Source: Leuctra nigra (taxonomy: Eukaryota > Arthropoda > Insecta > Plecoptera > Leuctridae). Taken from it: a DNA stretch of 64,000 nucleotides. Within the stretch, counting starts at the first letter, position 1; each line of letters begins with the position of its first letter. Position numbers and translations under genes: made by a program. The stretch covers positions 15,404,316 through 15,468,315 of the forward strand of contig OW203768.1 in the NCBI GenBank assembly GCA_934045905.1, given 5' to 3'. The notes under the pieces were generated by a model. That model had not been told where the DNA came from. It searched no databases and saw nothing but the letters and a program-made list of their open reading frames with translations. Positions 29,401-61,562 of the stretch are shown here, in pieces.

Positions 29401-32400
29401 TGTTCTCGCCACTTCCTGCCGTGAATCACGACGGTGTTGTATCATATCGCACGCGGCTAGGCACTGCCTAGTCTGCACCCGCCGGTGTTGTATCATATCG
29501 CACGCGGCTAGGCACTGCCTAGTCTGCACCCCCTGGACAGCGCACCCCTGAGTGTTCTCCACGACAACCTCCTCGGACAAAGATCGCCGTGTTCTCGCCA
29601 CTTCCTGCCGTGAATCACGACGGTGTTGTATCATATCGCACGCGGCTAGGCACTGCCTAGTCTGCACCCCCTGAACTGCGCGCCCCTGAGTGTTCTCCAC
29701 GACAACCTCCTCGGACAAAGATCGGCGTGTTCTCGCCACTTCCTGCCGTGATTCACGACGGTGGTGTATCATATCGCACGCGGCTAGGCACTGCCTAGTC
29801 TGCACTCCCTGGGCAGCGCACCCCTGAGTGTTCTCCACGACAACCTCCTCGGCCAAAGATCGCCGTGTTCTCGCCACTTCCTGCCGTGAATCACGACGGT
29901 GTTGTATCATATCGCACGCGGCTAGGCACTGCCTAGTCTGCACCCCCTGGACAGCGCACCCCTGAGTGTTCTCCACGACAACCTCCTCGGACAAAGATCG
30001 CCGTGTTCTCGCCACTTCCTGCCGTGAATCACGACGGTGTTGTATCATATCGCACGCGGCTAGGCACTGCCTAGTCTGCACCCCCTGGGCAGCGCACCCC
30101 TGAGTGTTCTCCACGACAACCTCATTGGCCAAAGATCGCCGTGTTCTCGCCACTTCCTGCCGTGAATCACGACGGTGTTGTATCATATCGCACGCGGCTA
30201 GGCACTGCCTAGTCTGCACCCCCTGGACAGCGCGCCCCTGAGTGTTCTCCACGACAACCTCCTCGGACAAAGATCGCCGTGTTCTCGCCACTTCCTGCCG
30301 TGAATCACGACGGCGATGTTGAATCAATCTTGACCGTGCGTCAATGTCGGTCGATGCAGTGCGGAATGCAAGGCTGCAGTTTACTTGCATTGGAATGAAA
30401 ATGCAGCAGAGACTCGTAATTTGTCTTTACTCAATCACAACAATAAAAATATTAATTAAGACGGCTGGGTAGTGAGTTTGACATTGAAGAGTTTTTTAAC
30501 CGATTTTTATCAATATCTTTTACCAATGTAATTGTTAACAAAATAAGGCTTTGTACGAACGTATTCAGAACTGTTCAATGAAAATAATTCCATAGCTTGT
30601 AATGGTTAATTAGATTTACTTTGTCCTACAGACGTTTAGTGCCCGAAAATTAGTAAAATTATGGCACTAAAAATCTGTTGGACAAAATAAAACTAAAAAC
30701 TTATTCCAAACTATGAAATTGTGTTCATTGAACTGTTCTGAATACTCGTACAAAGCCCTATTTTGTTAACAATTACATTGGTAAAAGATATTGATAAAAA
30801 TCGATTAAAAAAATAAAAACCTCTTCAAGGCCACGCTCACTACTCAGCCCTTTCAATTTTTCAATAATTTTTTTATAATGATTTTTTGTTGTATTTACTT
30901 TCATGATATTTACGATTGAGAAAACTTACCTTCATGTAAAATCTTGGCAAGATCTTGCAAATGCTTGGTAAGATGTTTCATCAGGGTAGTAAGAGAAGCA
31001 GATGGGTTGTATGATGGTGTTTTCTATCTAGTGGAGTGAGCAGCACGTTTGTATTGGGATCACGCACGGGCATTTGAATGCTACGACTTCACTCCATCAA
31101 TCCTGGAGAACTACTAGCAGACAGGGGCGTCCAGAAGTGGCGCTGGCGTCGCTAGGACGTCGTTGAGCCGAGGAAGGCGTCAGACTTGGATGCCGTCCCT
31201 CATACGTTCCCTTTGACATTATTTTTTCCAAGACATGCAGTATAATTTCTAGCTCTCACTTTTGTGAAATTTAGGTAGTTCATAGCTTTTAGTAAGTAGG
31301 GGTATTTTACGCGCACTTATTCGTCGAGATTTGTTTGAAATTTTCATGGGTTTTTACTTTTTATTATGTCATAAATGTCATGCTTTTCAAACATACGTTT
31401 AAGTGAAATTTCTCATCATGTTCATCCACATGACTACCTTACTACCATTTTATCAGTTGTCAGGTTTGGTTAGCCTCAGCAAGAAGTTATGTCTCTTTAT
31501 TACTAGAACAATAGTTTCATTGAATTTTGCAACTACCAACATTCTCAATCTGCAATTCATGCTCCATGTAAGGATTTAGATCATACAATCTCAGCAATTT
31601 ATGTAATTTGCAACTCAGTCGATAAACTGTCAAGTCTCGAAGAATCATAATTTGAAGCCCCTAACTGCCCCAACGACCACCTCCATCACCACCACAGCAT
31701 TTCATCTCTGGATGCACCCTCCCCCGAGATGCACCCTCCCCCCCCCCCCTACTTGTGATTTCCCCGCAGCTTCTCCGGCGATATTGGAAAAATGTGCTGA
31801 GTGTTTCACCCCCGCCCCCCGCCGCCCCAGCGGACGCCAAGGCGAAACAGTCTCGCTGTCTTGGTTGATATTCAGCGGGAGGTGGCGCGGATTCATCATG
31901 TCGACGTCGACGGTGGAGGCGGTGGACGTGGCCGTCGTCACAATATTTCTGTCCACTCGCAAGATATTGTTCGAGAACTGTTTTTTGACTTAGTGAACGG
32001 CGTGTGTTGTACGATGTTGACAAGATAATGCTGTTGTTCAAAATTCAAAAAAATAACTTTTCGAATTTCTTTTCTCATTTTGATTGCAGATATGCCGAAT
32101 CTAATTGCGCTCGCAGTTCTGAATCCATCATATTTATATTGCAGATTCCACAAATACGTGTAATTTATTATGAAAATGTCGTTGGTAAAAACTGTAATTT
32201 ATTGACTTCGAAATTGCTTCAAATCGATTGACACAAGTATTTTTTACGGGCTAGATTCGATGCCCCAAACCTTTTTTCAGGAGTTACTCTTACAAATGTA
32301 AAATCCCCCTTCCACTCCAAACGCGCCAATAAAGTGATGCCGGGATACGGTCGTAAATATTATCTGTACCACGAGAGAAGGGAATAGAATCTACATAAAT

Positions 32401-38400: not shown

Positions 38401-41400
38401 ACGACATCGAGAGAGAATGGGGAATGAGAAATCCAATATAAAAGTGCGATAATCCTGATCCAAAGTTTCGCGTTGTCTACTAAAACTACTAAATAATGTA
38501 CATCCCTTTTTGTGGCGTCATATCTAGATAAATGCTAGGCCGGCGAGCATATGCTCATGTATAAGGGCTACCCATGCCCTCCATTCTCGGGCGGCCTCCC
38601 TTCTCGGGCCGGCTCTCTCCCCGAATCGGGTCCCACCAGCCCGAACCCTCCCGCCCCCGGTCCGTCTCCGTTCCGGCCTGGCCTGGCCTTCCCACCAGTG
38701 CTGGACTCCCCCGGTCCGGGCCCCTCCCGAAGACCTCCATTTATGATCCACAAAATTGAAAAATAAATTGAAACGTGCGCAAAATGACCTCGTTGTTGAA
38801 TGTCATGTGTCAGGAGTGGGATGGACTTCATATGTATGTGATGTTGTTGATGTTGACGGGTTGTTTGTTTGTCTGTTGCAGTACGGCTCCGACGAGTTTG
38901 CGCAGGACTCGCCTCGCTACACGTCGCCCAAGACTGCCGGCATCTACGGCGACTCATACTACACAATAGGTGAGTACACACATCATCACATACTCGAGTA
39001 TCTTGTCCTTGTTCGCTCCTCTTTTCCGTAAGCGACGCGACTTAGCAGTGTCAAGTGTGTGCTCCAAGAGAAGGGAATCCTCGCCAAAGACGCATTTTTA
39101 GGATATTTATGCGTTTTGTTGACACAAGTCATCAGAAGAAGTCATTTTCAGGGAACCATTCAAGATTACATGGACACCTTTATACTCATATTTTTCCCAG
39201 AATATTGAGCCTTTTCTATACACTTGAAAAGAAATAATGAAAGTAATATAACTGGCACGAAACATTCGAAGAGATATACAGTTTGATTGAAACAAGAACC
39301 ATATTGTGCCAGCTTCTCGGCTTGATACTTGTCGATTGAGTTGCCTAGCAACTAGGTTCTCATTATCAAGTGAGATGCAATGTGAGCCTCCTGATTTCAA
39401 CCTACACTCAGCATATTCATCACAATCATCATTACTCTGTCATGTTACGCCCTCGTCGTCTTGTCGACATCTTCTGCTACAGCAGGCCTTGCATCATAGT
39501 ACCTTCTAGACCTCTAGGTAGCACTTGACATCCTTCCATGATCAACAATTACGAGCTTTATGCTGCAATTTTTTGTTACTTTTACGACACACTGTTTTCT
39601 ATAAACTTTTGCCTTTTAAATTCGTCTAAGCTCCTTCAGGGCTTGACCTTTTTTCTACTATTTGCCCATTGTCAAACCCATTCGATGGCCCCCGGTAGGT
39701 AGGTAGCTGTAGGTAGGTACCCGGAATAAGAGGTTATATACCTATTTTAATATTTTAAGTTAATTTCGATTTTTCTTTGTTTATTTGACTGATTTTACCT
39801 ACGTTTATTTGGCTTATATAAATACGATTATTAATTTTAAAATACATGTAGTCTGAATTACGAATATTTTTGCAAAGTTTTACATATCTTCTTTTATTTT
39901 GGCCAATAAAAATACGACTTTTAATGAAAACAATCTGAATTGTCTTAAAAATCGAATGAATACCCCACGAAATGGGTCCTATTTGTGTGGATTCCATCAC
40001 CTATCTCTCGTACAGGAACTAATTCTTGATTACCTTTGATTCGCCCCCGACTGGCCCCACTGTCAGTGACTGTCACAGTACCCTGCATGGCTGAGGATCT
40101 TGGGCTGATGCGAGATTCCAATAAGTCTGTTATTGTTGTTGACGCAGAAGTGAGACAAACACTTGACTTGTTTGTGTGCTGAGCTCTCGAATACCTCGCC
40201 TTAGCTGACGACATTGCTTGCATTCGATGCACAAGTTTATAGCTCTCTGCATTTAGCGTCCAATCAAGACCAGTAATATCTGCCCTAGCTTGTTTTTAGA
40301 CAAATGTATTTCGTTCTATGTTTCAACATTGAAGAAGAACAACGAGTGTTATGTAAAACCAAAGACTCATTTATGCTAAATCCATGTAATTTTTTTTTAA
40401 TGTATCAAAAATATAACACAATACAAATTCAAATAAACCACCAGATGGATAATTGATTGGTAATTAATCATTATTGTAAATAACAAAATACAATTCAAAT
40501 TGGACAATTTCAATCAGAATCCAATCGGATTTCTTTCGCTTGAAATTGAAATTTCCCAAATTGAATTGTGTCCAGGTAATATTTTGATGGTGTCAAGTGA
40601 GCGGATTATTATTGTTGTCAAAGGTATATGTTTGCTTCCCCCTAATTCTCAGTACGTATTGCACCCAAATGGCAAAAAAAAAATATTGGTGTGAGTTTCA
40701 ATCACTGTAATTTCCTGCTTGAGAATAAGTGTGATTTTTTTTCAATTGTCACAATGGAGAGACAATTATCTCATTGGAGATCCCTTTTAAGTCATCATAA
40801 CCATTTTGCTCTATGGACCACAATAATGACTTATTATTTGATCTTGAAGCGGCAAACCCTTCCATCCCTTCCCTAATGCAATGCCTTATGTCCACACATG
40901 AACCGATGTTGTAATATTATGAGTGGTTCTGACGATGGTTGTGTGTTTCAGATGGCGGTGCACAGGACCCGTGGCAGGGTGGTTCCTACGCCGGCTACAG
41001 TTCACCAGCTCACTTGCCACCCCCTCACCTGGCGCAATCCTTCCCTCCCCCCATGCACCTCGCCCACGAGCCCATGGTGAGTAACAAGCAATTCACACAC
41101 GACAAGATTTCATATGGATGGCTCCAGTATATCCTGCAATTTTAATAATTGTGTAAATACTTCTGTTATCTACTTCACATAATTTTTCTTGCAAAATGAA
41201 GTACCAGGGTAAACTGTTGACAAAGCTCCATGCAATACAGCTACGATGGATGGGCAGTAAATGTTTAGGGGATAATCAATTGATGCACTCCCCAAATCCA
41301 GTCTCCAATTCAATAATTCATTACATTTTTATTTGAGTAGTAAGTACCTATTACAAATTGCAAACTCATCAGTGGAAAATTAGGAAGGACAGTATCCCAC

Positions 41401-44400
41401 AAAGTATGGTAGTAGGCAATTTGTTTAGCCTTTGATTCTTCCATTTCTATAAACAGTAGAAGCATGTAGAAGGTGAGAACGCTTTGGAAGCAAATAATTT
41501 CTAAAATTGTCTCTGAATCGTGTGTATAACTTGTGTGTGTTTTCGCAGGGGTATGCGTCCATGTCCCCCGGCGGCCAGCAAGACCCCGCGCTGCCCAGCC
41601 TGCCACCCATGTCCAGCTTCCGAGGACCGGGCCCCGGGGGCCAGGTGCCTCCCACGAGTCCCGCCCTCTACCACAGTCCCGCGCTCTCACAGACACCTGG
41701 CGACACGCTCGGCAAAGCACTGGCGTCGGTAAGTTGCCAAAGATTACACACTTGCGGATGCATTTGAACATTATACCTACTGAAATGTTTTCAATCAAGT
41801 ATCCTTCAAATCTCATAACTCACCCATTTAATTAAATGTTAATAATTGTTTATTATACAATTCAAATAGGTATGTATAGATGGAGGCAATTGAATAATAC
41901 GAGAATCCCTACTTCAATTACATAGGAATGGTATAGTCTAGAAATCTCAAAATATAAAATTAATTCCTAATAATCTACCGGGGGATAATTTTTTTGTTCA
42001 TTCAAAAGGTTGTTTCCCTGCGAAGAATGTTTTCTTGACATTTGAAGAAAATGGCGTTTCAGCCATTTATAATGACCACGTTTTCCTTGAACTGTCATCA
42101 GTTTTCATATGAGCAAGTCAACTGGAACGAACCCTGGGTGTCTTGGTATATACCTACTGGAGAATTATTGATAATTAACCACAAGATAAAATTTAGTATA
42201 CTGACTGGAATAAAGACTGGTACTGATTATAAGTAACCAGAAAATTGTGTCTCTAATTAATTTTGTTAAACTATAGCTCTATAGGCCAACTCTCGATCAC
42301 GTTTCTCCCTGCCTCCGTCGCCGCACGACACTTGATGTTCTAATGGATTCTCTTGGTTGCCTCCCAGCAGATCTACCCGACCGACCAGAGCGTCAGCAGT
42401 TACAGTTCCAACCCCTCCACTCCCGTTAGTTCCCCGCCCCCGCTGACGGTGGGCGGAGCGCCGCAGCAGGGCGCGTGGCCCCCCGCGCACGCCGCCACCC
42501 CCGCGTCGCCGCACTTCGCGCCCGATCGGTCACTACACATGGTGAGTGCGCAGTTAGCCTATTTGTTGTGTGATTGTGTTGACTTTTAATTTTACGTGTG
42601 ATCGTGATGTCGAACTCCTTTCCTGTCAATGCAGATGACGTTGCATTCCAAAATGAACATCTTTTTAGCAAATTATTGTCAATCTGGGTTATTCACGTCG
42701 TCCTTAGTAGCTCTCCCCATGAATCCCAGAAAAATTGTATACATAACTAATGTTCCATCATCAGGGAAAGTATGTCGATTGTTAATTACGACAGTGAAGA
42801 AATGAAGGCCTAATACTGTACCCTGCGGTATACCAAGAGTTAATGGTAGAGATAAAGAGTTGATTCGGACTTATTTTACTCTTTTCTAAAAGACACTCGA
42901 AAAATATCACTAATCAGCATTTCAGCAGAATAGATTCCATAATTTTCTATGTTTATAAATAGCCATTGTGCTTTGGCTAGGTCCAAAATACTACCCACCA
43001 CACCTTCTATTTCCAATCCAATCTATATTTAAAATAGAATTAAAAACTAATTGAAATAGACAATGATATTTTGGCAATTTATTATTTTTTAACTTTTGTG
43101 TCTTTTCCTTGCATGTTACAAGTTAAGTTGTTTTTTACTTTGAATTTCGTCGCAGATTGCTCGCATGAAAACAAAGCTTTTGAAACCTGCACTCGTATAC
43201 ACACAGGATTTATGATTTTATTATTTTGTAAAACTCAATAAGTATTAAATTCAGTTCACTGCTTTTTAAATTGATCATTGAAACTGACTATCTGAAAACA
43301 TGATGTCAGTGGCATTGATACAGTTATTGAAGGCAGCGATGAATTTAATAAGTGGGTCCAAATCACAGGGTTACATCATCTGTTTACCAATTGTGGGGAA
43401 TATAATACACAACAAAATGCTTCCTTTCTTAGGAAATGTACATGCATTTTTACAACTTTCGTTGTCCAAAACCCACGTTAAGGTCAAGTAAACTTGATTG
43501 GTTGACCTTGGTGGTCTTTCATTGGGCTTTGACAACTTAAATTCTGTAAAATTACACTGGAGCAAGTTTGTGTGTATGCAATTCCTCAAACCTGGTAGAA
43601 CAGATATTACATTTTACCACATCTTGTATGATCTGGTGAATTTGGCCCCTGTCTTGAGTTCTTACACGACGGAATGAACGCATGGTGTGTAACGCTTGTT
43701 CCCCTGCCCCCGCAGAGCACGCAACCCGAGCAGCAGAGACTCGACGACGCCATCGGCTTCCTCAGAGAACAGGCCGTCGTAAGAACACCTCTTATTTATC
43801 ATTTCGTAGAACGTTACCGACCTCACACTGCATGCTTTCTCGATTGTTTTATTAGTTGCTTTAAATGTATGCAGCGACTGTTTGCCATTTTGCCTGAATA
43901 TAAGATTTGATGCTCTTCAGGAGCAAATTCTTGAGAGTTTGTCAGCAATGTTCTTTTCAACTGCCTAGATTACTAGTGACACTATATACCAACTCTAGTT
44001 ATAAAATCTTATGTGTCTAGTCATACAGGTCAAATTGTTTTCACTCTTGTCAAAGCATAGAGCTGAGAATGTTCTATCAATAACTAACTAATATTTGAGA
44101 CACAAAGTAAAACTTATAGAATCTTCATTTTCTTCAATTTTCTTGAAAAGATTGTATCCACGGAATTTACCTGGGGGTTTGCTTAATGTCTGATATCGAT
44201 TACCTAGCCTGATTCATTTAAGCCTATGTAGAGCACACTAACACAGTTTCTTCAAAAATTTAGAAAATTAAAAATGTACATGAAACTACTGACAAAGTTT
44301 GTGGAGGGGTTATTATAAATGTTTCTATAAATTAAGTCAAAACTCCCATGCGTCTATTTCTTCGCTATCTATAATATTGCTCTAGGCAACGTTGTAAGCC

Positions 44401-47400
44401 GCAATTGTTTGTCGCAGGGGACGCGCATGGAGGAGCGACTGGACGACGCGATCAACGTGTTGCGCAACCACGCCGAGCCGCAGACACATTCCAACGGCGC
44501 GCTGCTGGCGGCGTACGCGCACCACCAGCAGGTAGACCCGAGCCCGGGGCCGGCGTATCAGCCGCCCGGCTTGCAGGACACCGACGGACCCATCAAGATA
44601 GAGAGGCTGCCCACCGGAGCGAGTGAGTAGCAGCGCAATTTACACACACATCGCTAGAGAAAATATATTTATTCGTTAGGCCAAAAATGTAGTATTGATA
44701 TTAATCTGCATAAAGTCTAGTTTACCAGGTTCAATTTTTCATTCCATTCATTGAGCTAGAACCGGTTCTGTGTTCAATGCATTGAAGTCAACAATGAACT
44801 CACTGGTTATTTTGCTTCAATTTCGTGACTAAACGGTTACATTTGCAGATCCAAAAGATTGAACTTAATGAATTAATGTAATATTGAACCTTGTAACTAG
44901 GCTTAAAAAGATAATACAAATTGGTACAAATAGTATATAAAAATAAAATAATTGAAAGTTCCAAATGTATTACTTTTTGTAAGAGATACAAAATACCCAA
45001 ATGAACTGAGGCCCATTTGTTTTTTTAAGAAATATAAATTTTTAAACACGTATGGAAGTAAATGTTTTGCAAACAATATCCTGAAATGATGATTTCCAGC
45101 TTCATGCTCCCTTCCAAGGTCATCAGTGATTGCAAATCCTGCTGAAGCTAACTCTGAACCTTCCATGCGAATGGAATGTAGTGGTAAACATCTGCCCGCT
45201 TCTGGTTTCTCAGAGAAGCGGAAAGAGCCGACGGGCGGCGCAGCGGACACCAAGCCGAGCAGCTCGGAGTTGGCCAACAGCCAAGGCAGCACGACCAACA
45301 CGACGTCGGCGGCCAACAGCACGTCGGGGGCGAAGGCTTCCAAGAGATCGCGGAGATAGTAAGTCACTACGTCACCAACAATAGCAGCTGTCATGAGACC
45401 AATTCAAACCCAGACATTTGAGAATAGCAATATACAAACCCACTAGCTAGTTTGTTTTCATGTCTAACATTTTGCATTGTTATTCCATTAATAAATTAAA
45501 TATAAGACCGGCAGAAAACATTGCAAATTTCACAAATAAATTAACTGCTGCCCATTAATAATTATGGGTCTCTTTTCTGGTAATCCAAAAGCTTGGAAAA
45601 ATTTACATCTTGTTTCTCTATATAATTATTATTACTATGTTTGCTATTCACGGAGATAGGCTACCACAAAACACAACTTCTACATAACTTTGTACATCCA
45701 TTAAGATGGATAGGTTTTGTAAATTTTATTAGCAAAAATTTGATTGAATTGTGGCCAGCCGGTCTCCAGTAGTCCTGCGGCCCTAGTGTTGGTGGGAACA
45801 CCCACCCCCTGACCCATTAAATTGGAACCAGCGGATAGATGATTATTTATAAGGTAAATTAGCTTCATTTCAAAACCCCATAAAACGTGCCGTGCAGTTC
45901 AATGTTTTTGATTACCAGAACAAAAGAGACAAACGCTTGACACGTAATTTATTTAAATACTGACTTCATATATTCATATTGGATTTCTCATTGGAATCTA
46001 TATAGGAAGTAAAGTTCAAGAACATTTAACCTGTGAATATTTCCACTGTTCCAGTGTTTTGAACCAATATGCCTTTGGGGTACCTACTACCTAAATTTTA
46101 CATTAATTGAATACAATTCCATATCATTATTCATCTGGGGTCATTCACTCAGTCATTTTAGGTGCCTAGAATCATGCTTTATCTCTTCATAATTGAGTTT
46201 AAATGAAATGTAATATTTTTTAAAAATAATTCAGTGTAAAATATTGTCTAATACCTAGTTAAGTGTCTATTTCAGATTTAAAAGGATTGTTGCTTGGAAC
46301 TTTAAATTAATCAGTGCGATTTGCTCATACTGTAATGTCATGTCATAACTGCAAATGTCATAAGTGACATTTGCAGTAATACAAATGTCACTTATTAGTT
46401 GAGCCTCGACCTTGCACAATACTGAACATGCTAGCCAATAGCTCTGGTAGCTTAGTCTGACGCGTGTTTTGCAATTGTTGTTCGAGTGCCGACGAGGAGT
46501 CTGAGGATCCCGGCACGAAGGTCGTGCGCGAGAAGGAGCGACGCCAGGCGAACAACGTCCGAGAGAGGTGAGTGGCAAGCAGCGCGACCGAAGCCCCGTT
46601 CGCATCTCGACTTGGAGCGAGCCCAAACCAATCCGTGCACGTGGAACTGCGACTCAGATGCAAAATTATTCATTCTCTATATATTTTGACTCCTCTCTTA
46701 GTCTCTAATTTATATTTAATAAATTTAATATCATTTTGTTGTTTTGTAGACGTTTCGTGTCAACTTTTGTCTGTCAGAAACTAAATCAGTATTGTATCGA
46801 ATTGCCTTTGATTTTTGTTCAACTACTTGCAATGGTCCCTGAATACAGTGAAGATTCATATTCCTTAACCTAATTTCAAAAACGTTTCACAATAGATGCC
46901 AATGGAATTACTTGATTGTTTCCTCACAACAACATGAAATGTTGGGTATAATTATTTTTCTGATAGAGAGGTTATATTTTGCATCTGCGTCGACTGGTCT
47001 TTAGGATTTCAAACCAAATTCTCCTAGTTTAAAAGTAACATTACATCAGGCAGAGGAATACGGGGGCTGCCTTTCAGTACTCTGCGCTCTTTTCCTGCAT
47101 TCTAGGAATAATGAACAAATTATATTTGTACATCTTTTGTATCCTTGCTGAATGCTGGGCTGGATTGGTTGTGGTTTAACATTACTCCTTGGTTTTCTCT
47201 TATTTTGGTTAATAAATCTAATAAGATCGATTAATTGATCTTTCTGCTCATCACACTCATGTTTTGTTCAAATTTACCAAGTTGAATCGTAGTCACATCA
47301 CTAGAGAGTATGTCACAACTTGTTCGCGGTAAGAGCTGTCACGATCACTGTTGTCAGGAAATAGCTAGTGGGCTCAATCCCCGCTCGAGTCTGTACAACG

Positions 47401-50400
47401 AAAGTGATTCTTGACGTAATTTGTACGTGTCATTTTCCAAACTAAAATATACTCTGGAATATTTACTCTTACGATTCCTAAATTAAATTAATTTATAAAC
47501 TACGAACTTCAATACTCTTCTACATTTCTGTTATATTATTTCTTAACATGTGACGGAATAGAATAGTACATACCTACTAACAACGGTATATAGTAGGTAT
47601 AATTCTTTTCAGATTCCTAATATTATATTCGGACTGAAAAAAGTGCATATCGACTTTCGATCTTTTAAAACGATGTTCCTCTAGTTTTGCATAAGTTTGT
47701 AACAAAGCGGGAGACACATATCTCTAGTGGTGTGCTATAATTCGGCATGGACTACGCAACGAATGATCTACGCTCCGCGCGAACGACGGGCTTGAACGTT
47801 GCGTGTTTGCTCACCGAACCTGTCTTTAAAACATCATCTTCACATCACTAACATCGCTCTCCAGGACCAGGGTCTAATCAATTCCCTAGAAGTTGCATTC
47901 AAATTCCGACGGGATTTCTATCCTCGCTCGCTAACATTTTATAATGTTAATTTTTGCAAGTCGGTATTGTTATAGTCGGTATTGTTAAACTATTGTTATA
48001 GTTTATTGTATTGTTATTGACATTGTTATTGTCGGTATAGCCTTTTCAATAACGTGTCAGCAAGTGAAATTCAGAATCAATAGATTAATATTACAAGAAA
48101 AAATTAGAATTCATTCAGAGGAAATTCTGCTGCTTGTTCATTATTTAAATCTTTCGTTATCTTGTAAAAGTATTTAAAATGAATTTGAATGCAGCTGCAA
48201 TACATCAAAAACAAAAGCCTACCTATGGGTGCAGAGGGGTGGGTGAATTTAGAGGAGGCATATGGTTCAACACTGGCCCCACGCTTGCGCAACAACGATG
48301 ACTGACGTGTTGTTGTCTTGCTATTGTTGTTCGAGCGCGGATGACGAAGACGAAGACCCCCGGCGGAAAGCGGAACGGGAGAAGGAAAGGAGACAAGCAA
48401 ACAACGCGCGGGAGAGGTGAGCGAAACACGCAACAACGACGCAACGCGACGTCCCCCTCCCTCATTGTACCGGTGTTAACAACGCAGTTCCTTAGAGGGT
48501 GGTCAGGCGTGGTTAGCTACGCAAGATGTCTTCACATTCTTTCAGTTTATTTCTTCGGTTTCCGTTTCATGAGACTTCTTTTAACTTCATGTACAATTTT
48601 AATTTTGAACCTAGAAAATTTTTGACAAAATAAATAACATTCATACTTGCTGTAGTATGTAAACTATTAGTAAACTTTTCCACCATTTGCCTTTAAGAAA
48701 ACTTAAAAGTAAAAACTAAGGGATGAAACTGTAGATATTATCATGGATTAAAACTGCCGCTATATTCGTAGCAGCTGTTTAGACACTTTCTTGTCAACGT
48801 AATTTGTACGTCTACAGTTGCACAACTGTTGTACTAACCCCATCAAGTGATCACTGGCAAGAAGTGAGATGTATCATCCGCAAGCGATGATCGGAACGAA
48901 CGTAGCTAACCGACGCCAGTGCCGCTTTCTCTCCAAGAGTGTAGTTCATGTAACCAGGCTCGACAATGTCCTTGTTTCCTATCGCTGTTATAGGAACTGC
49001 ACTACCACCAGGAAACTGTCGACGTTAACAGTACCGGCTATGTCGCCAAGCATCATTCAGTTGTTGCCTTTTTCACATTACACTGTTTTTTTTTTAGAAT
49101 TATGTTATTGCTGCAAAGGAAAGTAATGCTATGTTTAATTCTAAGCAACTATACAGTTTCTGTTCTATTAATTCAAAATTTATGAGATTCAAAATTTTTA
49201 ATTTACAGTAGCAGTCAATGTGAATATTTGACATTGCATGCATTTGGAATATTTAGCAATAACGTACCTACATTGTTAGATGAATGCATAGATTGTAATT
49301 AATAGTACATTATCACCAGTGAATATTTGAATGATAAACTAAGCTATTGGTCCTGGGTTCGATCCCCAGCAAGGGAATGTGAAACTAGCAACAAGGCCAG
49401 CATTGTTAACGCCTGCCCGTTTTCTGTTTTCCCTTTCTAGGGTGCGGGTGAAAGACATAAATGAGGCATTCTTGGAACTCGGGCGAATGTGCATGGCGCA
49501 CCTAAATACCGAAAAACTCGAAACGAAATTAAACGTCCTCCACCAGGCGGTAGAAATAATAACCACCCTGGAGCAACAAGTGCGAGGTAGGCATGCAGCG
49601 ACGTGACACGAGCTATTCCGCTGTTGCAGGATCCGAATCCGAGACATCAACGAGGCGTTGAAGGAGCTCGGCCGGATGTGCATGACCCACCTCAAGACGG
49701 ACAAGCCGCAGACCAAGCTCGGCATTCTCAACATGGCCGTCGAGGTCATAATGAACCTCGAGCAGCAAGTCAGAGGTCAAGAGACTGCTTGTTCATCGTC
49801 TGTCAGCCTGACGTTATCACTGCTTGTCGGAATTTCATCTCGTTTAGCTTGAATCAGTATCTATTGAACACTTTGATCACTAAGCAACGCCATTTAACGA
49901 GTTGAAGGTATCAAGCAGCCATAACGGCAGGTTTTGTATTGTAATTTCACATGTTTGTTTGTACTGTCCAAATGGTAGAAAATTTCTGTTGTGACCCAAA
50001 ACTAAATGATGTATGCTGAAAGAAATGTATATAATATAATTGTATCACAGCAGCAAAGCTCAAAGATTGTTTTACCACCATTACAAAATTTAGAGCAAAA
50101 GTACCAATTTAATGAAATTACATGGAATGAAGTATTATTTAATGCATTCTGTATCCATATTAATATAGATTACTCGTAGACAAATAATATTTTTGGGAAT
50201 ACAAAAACTTCATTGCCATTTCTCAGATCTAAAATAAATATCTCGATAACTCTCATGTTATCAACTGTCGTGTTGTCAAAGTGTGAAGTCATGTACTGAC
50301 TTTTCCGCTTTTTCCACAGAACGCAACCTGAACCCGAAGGCGGCGTGTTTGAAGCGGAGAGAAGAAGAGAAAGCGGAAGACGGACCCAAGTTGGGCGGCC

Positions 50401-51432
50401 ATCACCTCGGCCATCCGGGCGCGCACATGAATCAAACTCCCTTCCCGATCATGCCGGTACGTTGATCATTCATAACAGATGTTGACATAGAATCATGGTT
50501 CGTTGGGCATGCAGAAAATTACACCAACTTACAGCTTGTAAAGAATGGTTTATTGTTGGTCCAATCTCATGTTTAGACGTCTCAACCAGGTTGAGTGTAG
50601 AATGTGTAAGTTGAGTGAACATACTTATTGATAATCAGTAAGAAAGGATTAAGTCAAATGACAGGGTGTTCAGGAATCAAGATAAAAATTGTAGGTAAGA
50701 CCTTAGATTTGTGGTCTCTGATCATTGTTCTGAAGAGTTGCAAATTCAATTGAGATGCTGGGTTTTTCTAGCAAACTTTTAGAGAATTTGGATGTATGAT
50801 GGGCTGTTTTTGAGCCCCAGTTTGGCTCGATATTTTTCATTTTGCATATTTCTACCTATTATAGTTTCAATTTGTGGGAAATATTTTTTTTTTTTATTGT
50901 CTGGGGCTTAACGTCGCACTTTTTTGCAGCGAGGCTAATGGCGACGGATGAATGATTATGATGATGATTGTGAAGAGTAGGTTAGGATGGAAGGTGGGAA
51001 GGAGGCGGTCGTGGCCTATTAGTAGAGTACCTTCCCAGCATTTGCCTATCGACTGAGGGAAAACCATTTTGGATGATCAAAATTAATAACTATCAAACTA
51101 TTGACCCTAAAATATATTTTTCTAACTTGAAGGTCTACCTGAAGATAAACGAGACCACTTACTTCCACTTCATTGTGTGGATTGAGCATTGAAACCCTTC
51201 AGAATTAGTCCTAATGAATCCTAAAAAGCAAAGATAAATTGTTTCTTTTCAAGGCTATCAAATTACAACAGCCTTCTACAGACTTCGAAACATTCACTTC
51301 ACTTGCACTGCATTGATGCGCAATCCAATCCACGTGTTACATATCAGTGGATCGAGACTCGAGAGCCAACTAATGTATGTGTTTTACTTCCAGGGCCCTC
51401 CGATGCAGCACAACCCATCACTACCACAGTAG
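26284..51432 (+). CDS. da: daughterless, class I bHLH E-protein (whole gene, spliced)
   Basis: Ubiquitous E-protein transcription factor; in insects Da dimerises with tissue-specific class II bHLH proteins and binds E-boxes in neurogenesis, sex determination and oogenesis (family knowledge). Exons with matching phase: 26284-26412 (5' start), 38223-38294 (internal ATG), 38882-38969, 40952-41076, 41549-41728, 42371-42541, 43716-43778 (cassette), 44418-44622, 45214-45358, 46487-46567 or 48336-48416, 49441-49586 or 49630-49775, 50320-50456, 51394-51432. From the internal ATG without the cassette the protein is 462 aa (483 with it). Domain order matches vertebrate HEB/TCF4 and fly Da: LPPMSSF and DTLGKALAS (AD2/loop-helix region), RLDDAI segment, KRSRRY, bHLH, then [18 protein letters not shown] directly after helix 2. 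The N-terminal AD1 helix of E-proteins was not seen. Identity is very secure; exon ends are inferred from splice consensus, not transcripts. Confidence 0.93.
27640..27992. repeat. 90-bp tandem repeat in first da intron
   Basis: About four near-identical 90-bp units; the string CATTGTCCTCCAGGCTGGCA recurs at 27721, 27811 and 27901. The first unit carries one extra base and the last is truncated. Because 90 is divisible by 3, both strands show open frames through the array, but there is no other sign of coding. Confidence 0.9.
28455..30315. repeat. 138-bp satellite array in first da intron
   Basis: About a dozen 138-bp units, some with an extra 51-bp partial copy, so the palindrome core occurs about 16 times. 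Each core contains the perfect 15-nt dyad CTAGGCACTGCCTAG. Units differ by few substitutions (for example ggacag, gaactg and gggcag variants), indicating recent amplification. Unit and insert lengths are multiples of 3, which leaves a 532-codon open frame on the - strand across the array. I regard that frame as a by-product because the + strand is also open for about 60 codons in several units. Confidence 0.93.
30459..30856. mobile_element. foldback MITE, family A (full copy)
   Basis: Roughly 400-bp element that is nearly one inverted repeat: the left end GGCTGGGTAGTGAG pairs with CTCACTACTCAGCC at the right end, and the interior (TTCAGAACTGTTCAATGAAA ... TTCATTGAACTGTTCTGAA) continues the pairing to a small central loop around ACGTTTAGTGCC. 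No coding capacity. Related copies lie at 12182-12471 and 32822-33196. Confidence 0.85.
30860..32240. other. first da intron, GC-rich patch 31655-31965
   Basis: C-rich and CpG-rich block (CGCCCCCCGCCGCCCCAGCG, GTCGACGTCGACGGTGGAGG) open on both strands without a recognisable product. Possibly an enhancer or a skipped exon; not supported further. Confidence 0.3.
32822..33196. mobile_element. foldback MITE, family A (right end worn)
   Basis: Same long-hairpin family as the copy at 30459. The left end GGGCTGAGTAGTGAGCGTGG is intact; the right end stops at CAAGGTCAAAC, where the terminal CTCACTACTCAGCC is lost. The central AAACGTCTGTAG/CTATAGACGTTT pairing is retained. Confidence 0.82.
33612..33762. 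mobile_element. short inverted-repeat element (~150 bp)
   Basis: Left arm TTTTAAAACCGTTATTTTACG ... CTCAACTTGGAGACC is the imperfect reverse complement of the right arm CTCCAGGTTGAGAGAAC ... CATAAAATACTGGTTTTAAAA. It is a hairpin-type MITE or remnant within the first da intron. Confidence 0.65.
35355..35442. repeat. 44-bp tandem duplication
   Basis: The segment beginning AATGTGGATCTAGGAAGC and ending GTTCTTCTCGA is present twice back to back with no visible mismatch, so the duplication is recent. Confidence 0.85.
36018..36174. mobile_element. inverted-repeat MITE (~155 bp)
   Basis: Termini GGCCCGGTATTACCAAAGTT and AACTTTGGTAATACTGGGCC are near-perfect reverse complements. No coding capacity. 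Lies in the first da intron. Confidence 0.8.
37285..37615. promoter_or_regulatory. CpG-rich patch, candidate promoter of the short da isoform
   Basis: GC-rich block (CGCGTTGGAGCCGCGTGCGA, CGCGCGCCGACGG) about 600 bp upstream of the internal ATG exon, preceded by a G-run near 37350. Position and composition fit an alternative promoter; no core motif was confirmed. Confidence 0.3.
37945..38205. repeat. 31-bp minisatellite upstream of the internal da start
   Basis: Repeats of a 31-bp unit (GCTCTGAAAGTTCTGCTGCG / TGAAGCTCGTT) run about five times, then decay into 33-34-bp relatives ending in GCTGCGCTGAACTCGTACAG. The array abuts the ATG exon at 38223, so it would lie in the promoter or 5' UTR of the short isoform. 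Confidence 0.85.
38223..38294 (+). CDS. da: da internal ATG exon (short-isoform start)
   Basis: 24 codons, [20 protein letters not shown] followed by PPAY, ending at a consensus donor GTGAGT in phase 0. The opening resembles, from memory, the MYCAY start of vertebrate TCF4-A and HEBAlt short isoforms, and GFYPPPAY joined to YGSDEF aligns with their VYAPSPNSDDF. The frame is open upstream, so a cryptic acceptor at CCCGCAG (ending 38267) could splice the distal exon in at codon 16 of this exon, also in phase 0. The exon may therefore serve both as first exon of a short form and as internal exon of a long form. Confidence 0.72.
38571..38755. other. GC-rich patch between da exons, nature unknown
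   Basis: A Pro/Gly/Arg-rich, GC-rich block in AT-rich intron sequence. It is open in several frames on both strands, which is what low-complexity GC DNA does. No convincing acceptor/donor pair was seen. It could be a skipped cassette exon or a regulatory CpG patch. Confidence 0.3.
38882..38969 (+). CDS. da: da exon (DSPRYTSPK)
   Basis: Acceptor TGTCTGTTGCAG, donor GTGAGT. Encodes [20 protein letters not shown] and onward to DSYYTI, then 1 nt (phase 1). Aligns with the NSDDFNRESPSYPSPK segment of vertebrate HEB/TCF4. The split codon G|AT with the next exon gives Asp. Confidence 0.88.
40952..41076 (+). CDS. da: da exon (DPWQGG, Pro-rich)
   Basis: Acceptor GTGTGTTTCAG, donor GTGAGT. The first codon is completed by the G of the previous exon (phase 1 in, phase 0 out). 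Encodes a Gly/Ser/Pro-rich stretch with [17 protein letters not shown] and HLAHEPM, corresponding to the low-complexity activation segment after DG..SDLW in vertebrate E-proteins. Confidence 0.87.
41549..41728 (+). CDS. da: da exon (LPPMSSF ... [10 protein letters not shown])
   Basis: 60 codons, acceptor GTTTTCGCAG, donor GTAAGT, phase 0 at both ends. Contains [10 protein letters not shown] and ends [10 protein letters not shown], both family signatures around activation domain 2. This ending is almost identical to the vertebrate GDALGKALAS. Confidence 0.92.
42371..42541 (+). CDS. da: da exon ([14 protein letters not shown]) with NAGNAG acceptor
   Basis: 57 codons, donor GTGAGT, phase 0 at both ends. 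The acceptor is a tandem CAGCAG (42365-42370); using the first AG would add one Gln before IYPTDQS. Using the second gives ALAS|IYPTDQS, matching the vertebrate ALASIYSPD junction. [13 protein letters not shown] is the AD2-adjacent signature. Ends RSLHM. Confidence 0.9.
43716..43778 (+). CDS. da: da 63-nt cassette exon repeating the RLDDAI motif
   Basis: Acceptor TGCCCCCGCAG, donor GTAAGA. 21 codons in phase 0/0, [20 protein letters not shown] then V. The core [13 protein letters not shown] parallels [14 protein letters not shown] of the next exon, so this looks like an exon duplication. It can be included or skipped without changing frame; skipping restores the usual family spacing ([16 protein letters not shown]). 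Confidence 0.78.
44418..44622 (+). CDS. da: da exon ([16 protein letters not shown])
   Basis: Acceptor TTGTCGCAG, donor GTGAGT, phase 0 in, 1 nt out. Encodes [20 protein letters not shown] at its start, matching [20 protein letters not shown] of vertebrate E-proteins, then a Gly/Pro-rich stretch and [10 protein letters not shown]. The IKIE tetrapeptide fits a psi-K-x-E sumoylation consensus (inference). Confidence 0.9.
45214..45358 (+). CDS. da: da exon (Ser/Thr/Asn-rich linker, KRSRRY)
   Basis: Acceptor GGTTTCTCAG, donor GTAAGT. The split codon A|AG gives Lys, producing KKRKEP at the junction (a likely nuclear localisation sequence), then a Ser/Thr/Asn-rich linker ending KASKRSRR and TA of a Tyr codon. 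KRSRRY just before the acidic segment is typical of insect Da. Sequence upstream of 45214 is open but AT-rich and preceded by no better acceptor. Confidence 0.85.
46348..46394 (+). promoter_or_regulatory. bistable hairpin upstream of alternative exon A1
   Basis: ACTGCAAATGTCA (46348-46360) pairs perfectly with TGACATTTGCAGT (46365-46377) around a TAAG loop. The same right arm, TAAGTGACATTTG (46361-46373), also pairs perfectly with CAAATGTCACTTA (46382-46394). The two 13-bp stems share bases and cannot form together. The structure ends 92 nt before exon A1 and could modulate its acceptor (inference); it may instead be a worn MITE tip. Confidence 0.5.
46487..46567 (+). CDS. da: da alternative exon A1: acidic segment plus basic region (NNVRER)
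   Basis: 81 nt; donor GTGAGT. Encodes, with the split Tyr codon, [20 protein letters not shown] then QANNVRER. It is homologous to A2 at 48336 (21 of 28 residues identical by hand alignment, same length, same phases). The usual NNARER basic motif has Val for Ala, a form common in class II proteins such as Twist. The acceptor AG is taken at 46485-46486; the nine bases before it (TTGTTCGAG) are also in frame and would read C-S-S, as in other insect Da proteins as I recall. Confidence 0.8.
48336..48416 (+). CDS. da: da alternative exon A2: acidic segment plus basic region (NNARER)
   Basis: 81 nt; donor GTGAGC. Encodes [20 protein letters not shown] then QANNARER, the orthodox Da/E-protein basic region. 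Preceded by the same TTGTTGTTCGAG string as A1. A1 plus A2 together would stay in frame but duplicate the basic region, so one of the two is expected per mRNA. It is the canonical copy by similarity to fly and vertebrate proteins. Confidence 0.88.
49441..49586 (+). CDS. da: da alternative exon B1: helix-loop-helix, variant form
   Basis: 146 nt; strong polypyrimidine acceptor (TTTTCCCTTTCTAG), weak donor GTAGGC. Encodes [20 protein letters not shown], loop [10 protein letters not shown] and helix 2 [19 protein letters not shown]. It is 32/49 identical to B2 by hand count. All scaffold residues of an E-protein HLH are present, with no stop or frame break, so it looks functional. Its codon third positions are more AT-rich than those of B2. 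The loop HLNTEK and LHQAV recall vertebrate E12 rather than fly Da (from memory). Phase 2 in, phase 1 out. Confidence 0.85.
49630..49775 (+). CDS. da: da alternative exon B2: helix-loop-helix, canonical form
   Basis: 146 nt; acceptor CCGCTGTTGCAG, weak donor GTCAAG. Encodes [20 protein letters not shown], loop [10 protein letters not shown] and helix 2 [19 protein letters not shown], nearly identical to Drosophila Da as I recall it. Only 43 nt separate it from B1. If B1 were spliced to B2, the frame would shift and reach TGA after 10 codons, so the pair must be mutually exclusive in productive mRNAs. Confidence 0.92.
50320..50456 (+). CDS. da: da exon: conserved post-HLH segment
   Basis: Acceptor TTTTTCCACAG, donor GTACGT, phase 1 in and 0 out. 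The split codon G|AA gives Glu. Encodes [20 protein letters not shown] then [12 protein letters not shown], the nearly invariant block right after helix 2 of E-proteins, followed by a His/Gly/Pro-rich tail. Confidence 0.93.
50888..51066 (-). mobile_element. tRNA-derived SINE, 5'-truncated
   Basis: Same family as the full copy at 57230. On the - strand it runs from CCCTCAGTCGATAGGCAAATG to GCGACGTTAAGCCCCAGACA and an A-rich tail (the T-run at 50884-50896 on +). The tRNA head is missing. Lies in the last da intron. Confidence 0.8.
51394..51432 (+). CDS. da: da terminal exon, coding part
   Basis: Acceptor TTTTACTTCCAG at 51382-51393, then [12 protein letters not shown] and TAG at 51430-51432. 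The short Pro/Gln tail differs from the GHM/GHL ends of vertebrate E-proteins. The 3' UTR follows to about 51780. Confidence 0.82.
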   Translation, partial: GPPMQHNPSLPQ

Positions 51433-51784: not shown

Positions 51785-54453
51785 AAAATTCAGCCCAAAC
51801 GGGGATAAGTAAATCTGTCCGAACTGGAACTGGTGAGCGATGCAAGTCTCTGATAGTTGACAACCTTTCTTTGCCGTGGCTTGTAATGTTATTTTTTAAG
51901 AAATTGGAAGTTCGGAAAATCTACTAAGAAGATGTTTTTGTCAAGAGACCAGCACAAACCGCTAGGCCAGTACCGAAGCCGTCGAAAGTTGCCCAGTGTG
52001 GCCAATGCGACAGCCCGAACTATACACACAGTCTTGCCAACTTAATCTCGACTATGACGTTTTTGTAACGTTTTGCCGTGTAAGCAACAGTGATTTATAT
52101 TATTATAACGTAGAAAGCAATTCGGAAGCTTGACTTTGACATCACACGGAAACGTTGGAAGTGGTTTCTTATATTTTTATTGTGTACAGCTACTTTGTTT
52201 AGAAGTTTAGCCGAGAATAAGAGTGGATTGCTTCGGAAGAATGCTTCTCTGGATAATCAAATTAAAATTACTACACAGCTTACAATGGATTAGTTTAAAT
52301 GCGTAAGGAATGGTTTGGAGCAAAAATATTGTAGATCTAGTGTGTACACTTGGTCCGAGTAAAAACGGTATCCGGAAGAAACCGATTGGCTTATTATAAG
52401 ATTTGATGTCATCATCTGATGAAAGTCTATGCTATCATTTAAAACTGTAGGATGTGAGCACTGATTTCATTTTTAATAACAAGGATTGATTGTCATGGAA
52501 CTGACCAGTAGCCAATACTTTTCGATCAAATACCATTTTGACTTGGCCAAATGCATATGTATAGGGTTGAAACAAGTTAGTCTGAACAATTCTTCACAGT
52601 GATGAAGTATTCTGATTGATTTGCTTCAAAGTAAATTCTTCATAGACAGTGTAGTATTTTGCTCAAAACATTTAAAATGTAAATCATTATTCCAATTTTT
52701 TTTTTTATAAAATGACTAAAGCCAACAGCTATTTAACAAGTATTGGCTGTCAATGCCAATATATAAATGTGACTGATGCAAAGGCAATACTCTGTAAGCT
52801 TTGCACTATGGACTCTTGAGATCATAGAGAAGTGATGAATCATTTGCTCCCGAGAAGCATTCTTCCTCGAATAAGCGTATGTCACTCGATCAATTGCCAT
52901 GCTGTAAGTTAAATCACACCTTGGTTCCAACGACAACTATCCCCACTACGCCTAGACTTATTTGTTTATTATTAATTAACTGTACTTTAGGTAGCTACAT
53001 TTTAGCTAAAATTGTTTTTATAGTAACTATTTTACACAAAGCAGCAAGATTATTTTTAAGAATATTACTATTGTGTATTTCTTTTATTTGTCCTATTTAA
53101 TAGTAGGTATTGTGGATGCAATGTTGAACGCGTACTTATATTGAGAGTCAGTTCACCGATTTCTATGTTCAATGTTGCTCCAAGCTTTATCTTAGTTGAT
53201 TACGCCTCTTTTTACTATTATTTACTTGTAGAGCCGATGACATTTGATGTTAGTTTTTATTTAAGTTCTTTTGTCGTATGGTGTTACGGCGACCTTGACA
53301 ATACATGACACGAATTGTTGGTTATCGTTTGTCGATTTGATAGCTTTCATTTTTGAACTACTTGGATTATTTTTACACTAAGTTTAGCCCCACTCGTACC
53401 AACTACTGGCAGCAAAATGTATGATAATCATAGATCCTTTTATGAAAGGCTGGCTGTTCTGTACAACTTATAGGTACCTACTTAATTTACAAGGATTAAT
53501 GATGGCCACAGAAAGAAAAATCTACTACTTCCGGTTCAAAAAATCAGATTTCTAAATGAAAAAAATGACATTTTGTGCAAACGTGACAGCTTCTTGCATT
53601 AATAAAAAAATAACTAGCTCTTTGTATTGTAAAATATTATATCAATAATTATAATAATGTATTTTTATTCATTACTCTGTAATATTCCAAGAGATATGCT
53701 ATAAGAAATAAAACAAATAGAGTGCTCTTATTGTTACGAATGTGCAGTGTGAAAGTGACCAAAACTTTGGATGTTTTTACAAGAAATGGTTCATTATTTT
53801 CAATTGATTTGGCATCCTTTTCTGTTAGGTTCTAGATGCAAGTGAACGAACAAGTGATGATATTGCTCCATGCTGATTCGTCAGCTGTGGAAACTGTTTT
53901 TCAATATAAAAAACCAAATATGTCAAACTTCTGTTGCTGGTGGTTCTTTTGAATGGAAAAATATTTGAAATTACTCTGTGAAAAATTAATAAATGTGCCA
54001 TTTTTCCATAATTAGCTACCAAATTATTGTGTAGAAAAGAAACCTTGTTTTCCCGACATCCTTGAACAATCACTCCTTTAATGTGTTTGTTGACAGTATG
54101 TAGTTTAGTTCAATAATGCAATTTGCAGCCAAGCAGTTACGGTAACTTCCAAACCGTAAAGATATGCCAAGGAAAAAGCAAATTGTATCACCTACCTACT
54201 TTTCGTAGTAATGCAACTCTTGCCTGGTACGCCAACTTGTAGCAACTGCAGTATTTGCCGTAAGCATAGACATTCATTCTATGTTATTCTAAAGCTTTCG
54301 AGTTTCGTCAATGTTGAAGGCCTCACTTTTATACCATATTCTGGCTTAATTCTCTTTACGATCAGACCATGTCTAATATAAAATATGCCAACATAAGAAA
54401 CATATTGTACATACTGTGTCGGGTTTCCCTGCAATTTGGTAAAATGTAAGACC
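51785..54453. other. da downstream region, no gene recognised
   Basis: AT-rich with short frames. Contains MITE family B copy 3 and A/T-rich stretches near 53600-53720 with further polyadenylation-like hexamers. Confidence 0.5.
52347..52552. mobile_element. MITE family B, copy 3
   Basis: Left CACTTGGTCCGAGTAAAAAC / GGTATCCGGAAGAAACC and right ATCAAATACCATTTTGACTTGG are diverged terminal repeats. The body has AAGGATTGATTGTCATGGAA as in the other copies. Confidence 0.75.
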
Positions 54454-54461
54454 ATCTCAGC

Positions 54462-56086
54462 CAGGGGCGGATTAAACAGTTTGTCGCCCCTAGGCTATCA
54501 AGTATCGCTCCACTACTGTTCATAGTTTACACAACTGATATCGATGAGAGTGTGAAACACTGCAAAATACACAAATTTGCAGATGATACCCAGCTTCTAT
54601 ATACCTTTCGCCCTCAAGATCTAGCTGCAGCACAAGAGAAAATAAACGAAGATCTTCAGTCGATTGCTGCATGGAGTGAAAGTCAAGGACTCTCTTTAAA
54701 CACTTCGAAGACAATATCAATGATTATAGGGAACAAATGTCAACGGATCAAAATACTTAATAGTGAATTTAAACTACATATAAATGGTTCTATTATTCCC
54801 ACTTCAGAAAATGCAAGGAATTTAGGTTTGATAATGGACAGCCAAATGACTTACTCAGATCATATTCAGAAAGCAAATAGCAAAGCTTACGGCAAACTAC
54901 GAACAATGCAAAGATTTAAACAAATTCTGACAAGATCAACAAAGAGCAAGCTTGTTGAGGCACTTATAATATCTAATTTGAATTACTGTGACATCGTTTA
55001 CGGACCGTGTATTTCGAAGAAAGATGTAGGTCGTATTCAAAAAGTCCAGAATTCTTGTGCTAGGTTTGTATTCAATATTAATAGAAGACACCATATAAGT
55101 CCCTACATTCAAAAACTTCATTGGCTAAAGATGGAAGCGAGAAGAAGCCTACATTTAACATGCGCAACGCACAAGATATTGAAAAATGGGAGAGCCAAAG
55201 TATTTAAATGATAAGTTGAGAAAGCGTCATGATATTCACCTACGAGACACGCGGTCCAAAGATAAGCTAGACTTTGGAACTCATCGAAGTAAAAAATTCA
55301 AGAACTGTTTTTCCTATTCAGCCTCAGAAGCATACAACACAACAACAACAGAAGAGCAGACCCTAAGTTTAAAAGCTTTCAAGACGCTCGTTAAGGATAA
55401 ACTCGCTATCATTCAAGAAAAAGAATTCGTGAAGTAATGATATTGGAAGACAAGAATCAAGATTACATCCTGCTGAGAATGTTTTTTCAGTGGTTTTCCC
55501 TCAGCTAAAAAGCAAATGCTTGGATGTTCTTCCAATATTACCACTGATATTGAAGCACAATTTTAATGACTATTATGAATTAAGAAGAAGTAGGTAAACG
55601 GTGAAGAGGTGAAGCAGCTGAAGAGAAGAGATGGATGTATGGAAGATCAACGACTCGATTGTTGAATACAGACCAATTATGTACCTATTTTATGTGCTCA
55701 ATAAATAACATTATTGTTATTATTATTATTAATTCACACCTGATGTCAAACCCGCAAGAATGACGGCATTAGAAGAATACAGACGCCCCGCGCGAGGAAA
55801 TGGTGCCTTTTTCTATCCAAATCGCTGTAATACCTCAAGAGTCAAGTTAGGACTCTACCTCTTGCATGAGGGGGGGGGGGGGGGGGGGGGGGGAATCGCC
55901 ATATCCCCCATTCTATTCAAAGGACTGTTACCATATTTTCATATTACTTGGTACCTATTGATAGTTTGTTTATGATTTTATTTATTTTTTTATCGTAATT
56001 TGGCATTTATTTGACGCCGCGGCGCCCCCTGGAAGCTGGCGCCCATAGGCTATAGCCTAAGTAGCCTAATGGGTAATCCACCCCTG
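54462..56086. mobile_element. hAT-type element with nested LINE fragment
   Basis: Ends CAGGGGCGGATTAA and TAATCCACCCCTG are terminal inverted repeats. Perfect 8-bp target duplications ATCTCAGC flank it (54454-54461 and 56087-56094), which is the hAT hallmark. Subterminal CCTAGGCTAT/ATAGGCTATAGCCT repeats are present. The interior is mainly a LINE fragment (54500-55725) plus non-coding DNA with a G-run of about 26 at 55869. No transposase was seen, so it is non-autonomous. Confidence 0.85.
54500..55725 (+). pseudogene. jockey/CR1-type LINE reverse transcriptase, 3' fragment
   Basis: The frame from 54504 reads SIAPLLFIVYTTDIDESVKH then KIHKFADDTQLLYTF. FADD is the catalytic YxDD-type box of non-LTR reverse transcriptases, followed by the typical ISNLNYCDIVYGP and RIQKVQNSCARFVF C-terminal segments. 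A frameshift near 55190 moves the frame to EPKYLNDKLRKRHDIHLRDT and KKFKNCFSYSASEAYN, ending with TGA at 55438. The 3' end has TTATTATTATTA. The 5' part (endonuclease and palm N-terminal blocks) is missing. Inactive relic. Confidence 0.9.
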
Positions 56087-61034: not shown

Positions 61035-61562
61035 CATATATACCCTGTGTTGAAGCCAGTACAGCAGTTGAAGAGCTGATGTTGAAGCCAGTATGGCAGT
61101 TGAAGAGCTGATGTTGAAGCCGAGCTGGTGTTGAAGCCAGTACAGCAGTTGAAGAGCTGATGTTGAAGCCAGTACAGCAGTTGAAGAGCTGATGTTGAAG
61201 CCGAGCTGGTGTTGAAGCCAGTACAGCAGTTGAAGAGCTGATGTTGAAGCCAGTACAGCAGTTGAAGAGCTGATGTTGTAGCCGAGCTGGTGTTGAAGCC
61301 AGTACAGCAGTTGAAGAGCTGATGTTGAAGCCGAGCTGATGTTGAAGCCAGTACAGCAGTTGAAGAGCTGATGTTGAAGCCAGTATGGTTGAAGCGCCAC
61401 ATGTAGAGCACATGAACTCTAGTGTTTGTCACAGAAAAGTCAGCCTGAAACAACAATAAAATCATTACCATCAAATTAAATTTGATGTGAAGCTATATAA
61501 AACATTGAATGTGATAGAAGGAACATTAAGAAACATGTAGCAACACACCTCACCGGCAGTTA

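Follow-up and report, generated by a model that had tools for sequence, protein, structure and literature searches.

The basic helix-loop-helix (bHLH) domain of the Leuctra daughterless (da) gene is probably built by a two-part splice switch, in which one exon is taken from each of two successive alternative pairs (A1 or A2, then B1 or B2). With two choices at each of two positions, up to four versions of the domain could come from one gene. A1 or A2 would supply the acidic stretch and the basic, DNA-contacting region, and B1 or B2 would supply the helix-loop-helix (HLH) dimerisation core, with one B exon per transcript. These exons lie in a 64-kb stretch of DNA, referred to here as the window, for which an initial annotation had proposed two alternative HLH exons. 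The switch now appears both more elaborate and older than that annotation held, as it takes in the A pair as well and the split between B1 and B2 predates insects.

Da is the shared partner of the proneural proteins and also acts in sex determination and in oogenesis. In flies it is known with a single HLH core, and work there generally treats the Da bHLH domain as fixed. If other arthropods also choose among cores and basic regions, splicing could regulate the partner choice and DNA binding of this hub protein, as it does for vertebrate E12/E47, and the fly results would then describe a reduced case.

The daughterless locus

The + strand of the window carries the 3' portion of daughterless, a gene for a class I bHLH protein (E-protein). 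Coding exons E0 to D were delimited by reading frame and AG/GT borders, and N-terminal exons were not found in the modelled part of the window. When three polyneopteran Da proteins (Anabrus, Bacillus and Periplaneta) were used in tblastn, the series from E0 to C was colinear with all three, and exon D matched two of the three, weakly for Anabrus and Periplaneta and with no match listed for Bacillus. Upstream of the alternative exons, tblastn and AG/GT borders together placed E0 (38882..38969), E1 (40952..41076), E2 (41549..41728, beginning LPPMSSFR), E3 (42371..42541), E5 (44418..44622) and E6 (45214..45358), which ends in KRSRRY at phase 2. Exon E4 (43716..43778) was considered together with E5 as a third alternative pair, at 43.7 and 44.4 kb, and this candidate was rejected because the Anabrus, Bacillus and Periplaneta proteins hold both exons in series. 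Downstream, the common exon C (50320..50456; tblastn, AG/GT borders) bears an E-protein-type tail, and the last coding exon D (51394..51432), delimited by AG/GT borders and weak tblastn matches, ends in a stop.

The closest Da proteins were polyneopteran, with Anabrus at 64% and Schistocerca at 62%, among the best 120 of 6498 matches. All four A-B isoforms scored above the Pfam HLH cut-off, and their best matches among solved structures were TCF3 and TCF4. Judged by its sequence, which combines the HLH, an E-protein-type basic region, the tail and the colinearity, the locus is an E-protein gene, daughterless. One protein search of the 536,196,549-base genome, in which the best candidates only were scored, found no second Da-like locus. 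Of the seven matches it gave, five fell at the Da locus (A1, A2, B1, B2 and C), and the other two, at different places in the genome, were weak (43% and 34% identity).

Other features of the window include a tandem array of 138/189-base units at 28466-30313 and further tandem arrays at 4534-5577, 27643-28002 and 61047-61385. A 253-aa open frame at 54450-55208, 3' of the last Da exon, resembles by eye a reverse transcriptase fragment (FADDTQLL).

Two twinned exons in the bHLH region

Exons B1 (49441..49586) and B2 (49630..49775) each encode an HLH core in 146 nt and are separated by a 43-nt spacer (49587..49629) that runs from the B1 donor to the B2 acceptor. The initial annotation had described two HLH exons 43 nt apart, and its coordinates and its lengths of 146, 43 and 146 nt proved exact, as did its count of 32 identical amino acids out of 49. 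Identity at the DNA level was 96 of 146 nt. The B2 core is identical to that of Anabrus, Bacillus and Periplaneta at 49 of 49 residues, and B1 is without the B2-type marks. The two exons have the features by which mutually exclusive pairs are recognised: they are neighbours of equal length, similar sequence and the same frame, with GT-AG borders. Against a Pfam HLH cut-off of 20.7 bits, the B1 isoforms scored 38.2 and 38.7 bits and the B2 isoforms 46.7 and 46.9 bits. The pair had also been described as two DNA-binding/dimerisation modules, which holds in that both HLH cores are complete but needs correcting for the basic region: B1 and B2 carry only its last residues, and the exon before them encodes most of it.

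Reading frame favours the use of a single B exon. Because the A exon stops in phase 2 and C starts in phase 1, the frame is recovered only when a single 146-nt exon lies between them. Both A+B1+C and A+B2+C are open, and A+C without any B exon is frame-shifted. The earlier claim that joining B1 to B2 breaks the frame was borne out, with A+B1+B2+C meeting a TGA 10 codons past B1, and retention of the 43-nt spacer also brings in an in-frame TGA. Joint inclusion of B1 and B2 is unproductive by sequence, as both joined forms stop early. Transcripts that include B1 and B2 together, or that keep the spacer, would be expected to end at these early stops and then to be destroyed by nonsense-mediated decay.

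The splice sites of the two B exons were compared with others of the gene. The B1 acceptor, with 18 of 20 pyrimidines, was the highest of the 12 acceptors examined (E0 left out), and the B2 acceptor had 12 of 20. The B2 donor, GTCAAG (49776-49781), deviates from the donor consensus GTRAGT and looks weak. Such a weak-looking donor may make use of the conserved B2 core dependent on regulation.

The 43-nt gap is itself probably too short for removal as an intron and could impose steric exclusion. For human exons, the text of Hatje et al. describes a donor-to-branch-point distance below 50 bp as a potential source of steric interference, with frame-breaking lengths as a safeguard (PMC5740500). A branch point anywhere within the spacer would lie less than 50 nt from the B1 donor. 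No match to the branch-point motif YKNAY was found in the spacer or in the last 27 nt of B1, so a steric exclusion of B1+B2 is an inference from the length of the gap. B1 is presumably used in mRNA, and to the exclusion of B2. Together with the frame logic, the gap offers a small natural system for testing whether mutually exclusive exons are kept apart by steric exclusion.

The exon upstream of B1 and B2 is also twinned, which the initial annotation had missed. This second pair was found by tblastn with a fly Da sequence as query, and self-comparison of the open frames in the window gave the same pair. A1 (46487..46567) and A2 (48336..48416) both encode an acidic and basic region in 81 nt and share the same phase, with identity at 20 of 27 residues and 51 of 81 nucleotides. 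A2 was also matched by tblastn, and A1 is 92.6% identical to the Anabrus segment over 27 aa. Among the positions at which they differ is NN-V/A-RER in the basic region. All four A-B combinations are open. Joint inclusion of A1 and A2 also keeps the frame and is by sequence neither prevented nor unproductive, and 26 of 113 listed Da models contain both types, so the choice between A1 and A2 is not strictly exclusive.

The 13 nt upstream of each A exon are identical (ATTGTTGTTCGAG; 46474-46486 and 48323-48335), with differing flanks. Both A acceptors end in GAG, which none of the other ten acceptors examined does. The same letters are possibly coding in other insects, as RRYCSSAD in Schistocerca P0234, RRYSSAD in Periplaneta P0236 and RRYAD in Anabrus P0233. 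This suggests candidate tandem acceptors, perhaps with unusual TG ends.

Both A types were found in other Da proteins when basic regions were typed by a single residue, V or I for the A1 type and A for the A2 type, in the 113 proteins newly listed among the best 120 of 6498 matches. The A1 type was present in 83 of the 113, alone in 57 and with A2 in 26; the remaining proteins had the A2 type alone (27 of 113) or neither (3 of 113). Compared over 21 residues, window A1 was closer to the A1 types (mean 18.8 vs 15.9), and window A2 was barely closer to the A2 types (17.3 vs 16.7). One model, Popillia japonica P0001, has the arrangement A1-HLH-A2-HLH with two identical B2-type cores; this could reflect a true local duplication or an error of the assembly or the model.

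Conservation, occurrence and age of the two cores

We compared the twinned exons with what the window offers by chance. On the + strand, the 64 kb contain 208 AG-N146-GT segments, of which 29 are open in the phase required; the - strand has 187, with 18 open. Setting B1 aside, the best match to B2 among the open segments was 5 of 49, against 32 of 49 for B1, and for the 20 of 27 shared by A1 and A2, other open AG..GT segments of the same length reached at most 5. No twins were found for the 8 other coding exons (D left out), the best match being 9 of 45 on the + strand.

Differences between the twins are concentrated at third codon positions (13/7/30 for B1 and B2, binomial p 1e-4; 5/5/20 for A1 and A2, p 2e-4). 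Silent sites are saturated in both pairs, with pS 0.84 and dN 0.23 for the B pair and a silent estimate above 1 and dN 0.17 for the A pair. The third-position bias could partly reflect constraint on B2 alone. When 50 changes were simulated from B2 at equal rates, none of 5000 runs kept 32 identities and the maximum was 27; the retained identity argues that B1 itself is also under constraint. An open frame was kept in 26% of 20000 simulated neutral runs, so the openness of B1 alone is weak evidence. The twinned exons are real and conserved, and look like functional alternatives.

Core types in other proteins were surveyed in three protein searches, with listed matches comprising the best 120 of 272, 120 of 628 and 120 of 6498, in a collection clustered at 90% identity. 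A B2-type core and no B1 was found in all 120 of the nearest proteins listed (best 120 of 6498; 113 plus 7, two records being nameless). Five polyneopterans among the listed proteins are identical to window B2, and Hermetia P0081, the one dipteran protein examined, has a B2-type core. Because of the 90% clustering, B1 isoforms, which differ at 17 of 459 residues, could be hidden. Several near-identical isoforms are nonetheless listed apart (P0073-P0076), so the absence of B1 carries some weight. B1 may have been lost in many insects, or database clustering may hide it.

This uniformity, which extends to Orthoptera, Phasmatodea and cockroach models, is what would be seen if B1 were a relic, once an alternative exon in an ancestor but now skipped by splicing, leaving B2 as the sole core used. 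Such a history would also agree with the greater divergence of B1 and its lower Pfam HLH score, and the neutral simulations allow for a frame that stays open by chance. Nevertheless, a relic is unlikely, as the B1 protein is conserved far beyond neutral change (0 of 5000 runs) and the exon keeps both splice borders intact and the most pyrimidine-rich acceptor tract of the 12 examined.

Crustacean E-protein models share a non-B2 core. Darwinula, an ostracod (P0002), and Amphibalanus, a barnacle (P0004), each have this core, with AF in helix 1, followed within the one model by a B2-type core with AL. Both are single protein models known from protein sequence alone, and the running together of the two cores is taken to be a prediction error. 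The four Daphnia magna isoform models (P0073-P0076), from one contig, hold the non-B2 core alone, with no Daphnia B2 core among the matches listed. Cores of the AF type occur in these Daphnia models and also in Artemia P0138, Limulus, Tachypleus, Tropilaelaps and the tardigrade Ramazzottius. Out of 49 residues, identity to window B1 and B2, respectively, was 36 and 33 for the first Darwinula core, 35 and 32 for Daphnia, 38 and 39 for Limulus, 32 and 35 for the first Amphibalanus core, and 30 and 34 for Artemia. Raw identity by itself does not sort the AF-type cores into B1 and B2, and a crustacean "B1" here means non-B2 plus position, without a supported B1 clade. A further protein, P0135 (639 aa; longest contig 2173 bases, transcript-like), has a non-B2 core that runs on into unrelated residues, as would happen if the intron after the core had been retained.

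The Daphnia models also bear on the idea that B1 serves as a regulated route to unproductive mRNA, with B1+B2 or a retained spacer leading to decay and so tuning Da dose. The early stops of both joined forms fit this scheme, but it seems quite improbable given that B1 alone gives an open protein, that its conservation as protein would be needless in a poison exon, and that the Daphnia isoforms carry the non-B2 core by itself.

To date the duplication, we built a tree of the cores (30 rows, 49 columns), in which 3 of 26 inner branches were starred and most other forks weakly supported. All 10 B2 rows formed one clade (100/99), with window B1 and the vertebrate rows outside it. The first Amphibalanus core paired with Ramazzottius (95/84), and the Amphibalanus B2 was placed beside Nasonia within the insects, where it is surely misplaced. 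Holding window B1 with the insect B2s, as a duplication within insects would require, was rejected (p-AU 0.0016), and a pair private to the window, with the Anabrus row identical to B2, was also rejected (p 0.027). A single clade of all pancrustacean AF-type cores was not rejected over these 49 columns (p 0.19). Given the B2 clade and the rejected insect-level duplication, the B1/B2 duplication took place before insects diverged from ostracods and barnacles. B1 is therefore no novelty of insects, as the presence of both core types in one ostracod and one barnacle model also indicates. A recent duplication private to this lineage, which the adjacency of B1 and B2 and the lack of B1 among the insect proteins listed might suggest, is least credible of all, with silent sites saturated and both placements rejected.

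Under the two-part switch, B2 is the strongly conserved core of the listed insects and B1 would derive from the older, non-B2 kind that crustaceans also kept. Choosing one core over the other would be expected to change the partners of Da and the strength of its pairing, as the choice of E12 or E47 does in vertebrates.

Relation to known splice switches

A literature search, mostly without subscription papers and supplements, found no description of alternative HLH exons in arthropod daughterless. The nearest known system is human TCF3, in which exons 18a and 18b yield E12 and E47; according to the text of two papers, these differ in dimerisation properties and their choice is influenced by HNRNPH1 (PMC12324280, PMC5852603). 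Exon 18b is given there as 224 or 227 nt (PMC12324280). A plus B in Leuctra measures 81+146 = 227 nt, as given for exon 18b, and probably corresponds to the same stretch of coding sequence. Human TCF3 has three mutually exclusive clusters, and such exons have often been gained and lost, as the text of Hatje et al. describes (PMC5740500).

TCF3 and Leuctra da thus seem alike in carrying the bHLH region of an E-protein as mutually exclusive exons, which in Leuctra is read from sequence. They differ in what was duplicated: vertebrate TCF3 repeats the basic region and HLH as one unit (P0003, P0121), whereas in Leuctra da an intron splits the region and each half is duplicated. The vertebrate unit appears from the text of PMC12324280 to be one exon. 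The analogy with E12/E47 drawn in the initial annotation is therefore apt for the resembling alternative HLH exons and breaks down over the duplicated unit, with basic region and HLH in separate exons in Leuctra da. The vertebrate rows cluster in our tree, weakly (63/69). B1/B2 and E12/E47 are likely separate in origin, although joining window B1 with vertebrate E12 was not rejected over 49 columns (p-AU 0.14).

A mollusc E protein, Pinctada imbricata P0137, has two tandem HLH cores after a single basic region. These cores group together in the tree (99/99), so they look like the product of a separate duplication.

In the butterfly Bicyclus anynana, two mutually exclusive da exons have been tied to seasonal form by RNA-seq, qPCR and PCR (PMC9218548), evidence that at least one insect makes use of a choice between da exons. 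These exons were new to annotation and the protein region that they encode is unstated in the text of that paper, which prevents matching them to A1/A2 or B1/B2.

Taken together, these systems allow a broader reading, which we offer tentatively and judge a little short of probable: that A1/A2 and B1/B2 are set separately to give four bHLH domains; that B1 is of ancestral type, already present when insects parted from ostracods and barnacles, retained since then, and apparently lost by many insects, including flies; and that exons for the HLH or bHLH of E-proteins probably underwent three or more duplications, in vertebrate TCF3, in a mollusc and in pancrustaceans. Repeated duplication of these exons would suggest recurrent selection for a hub partner under splice control.
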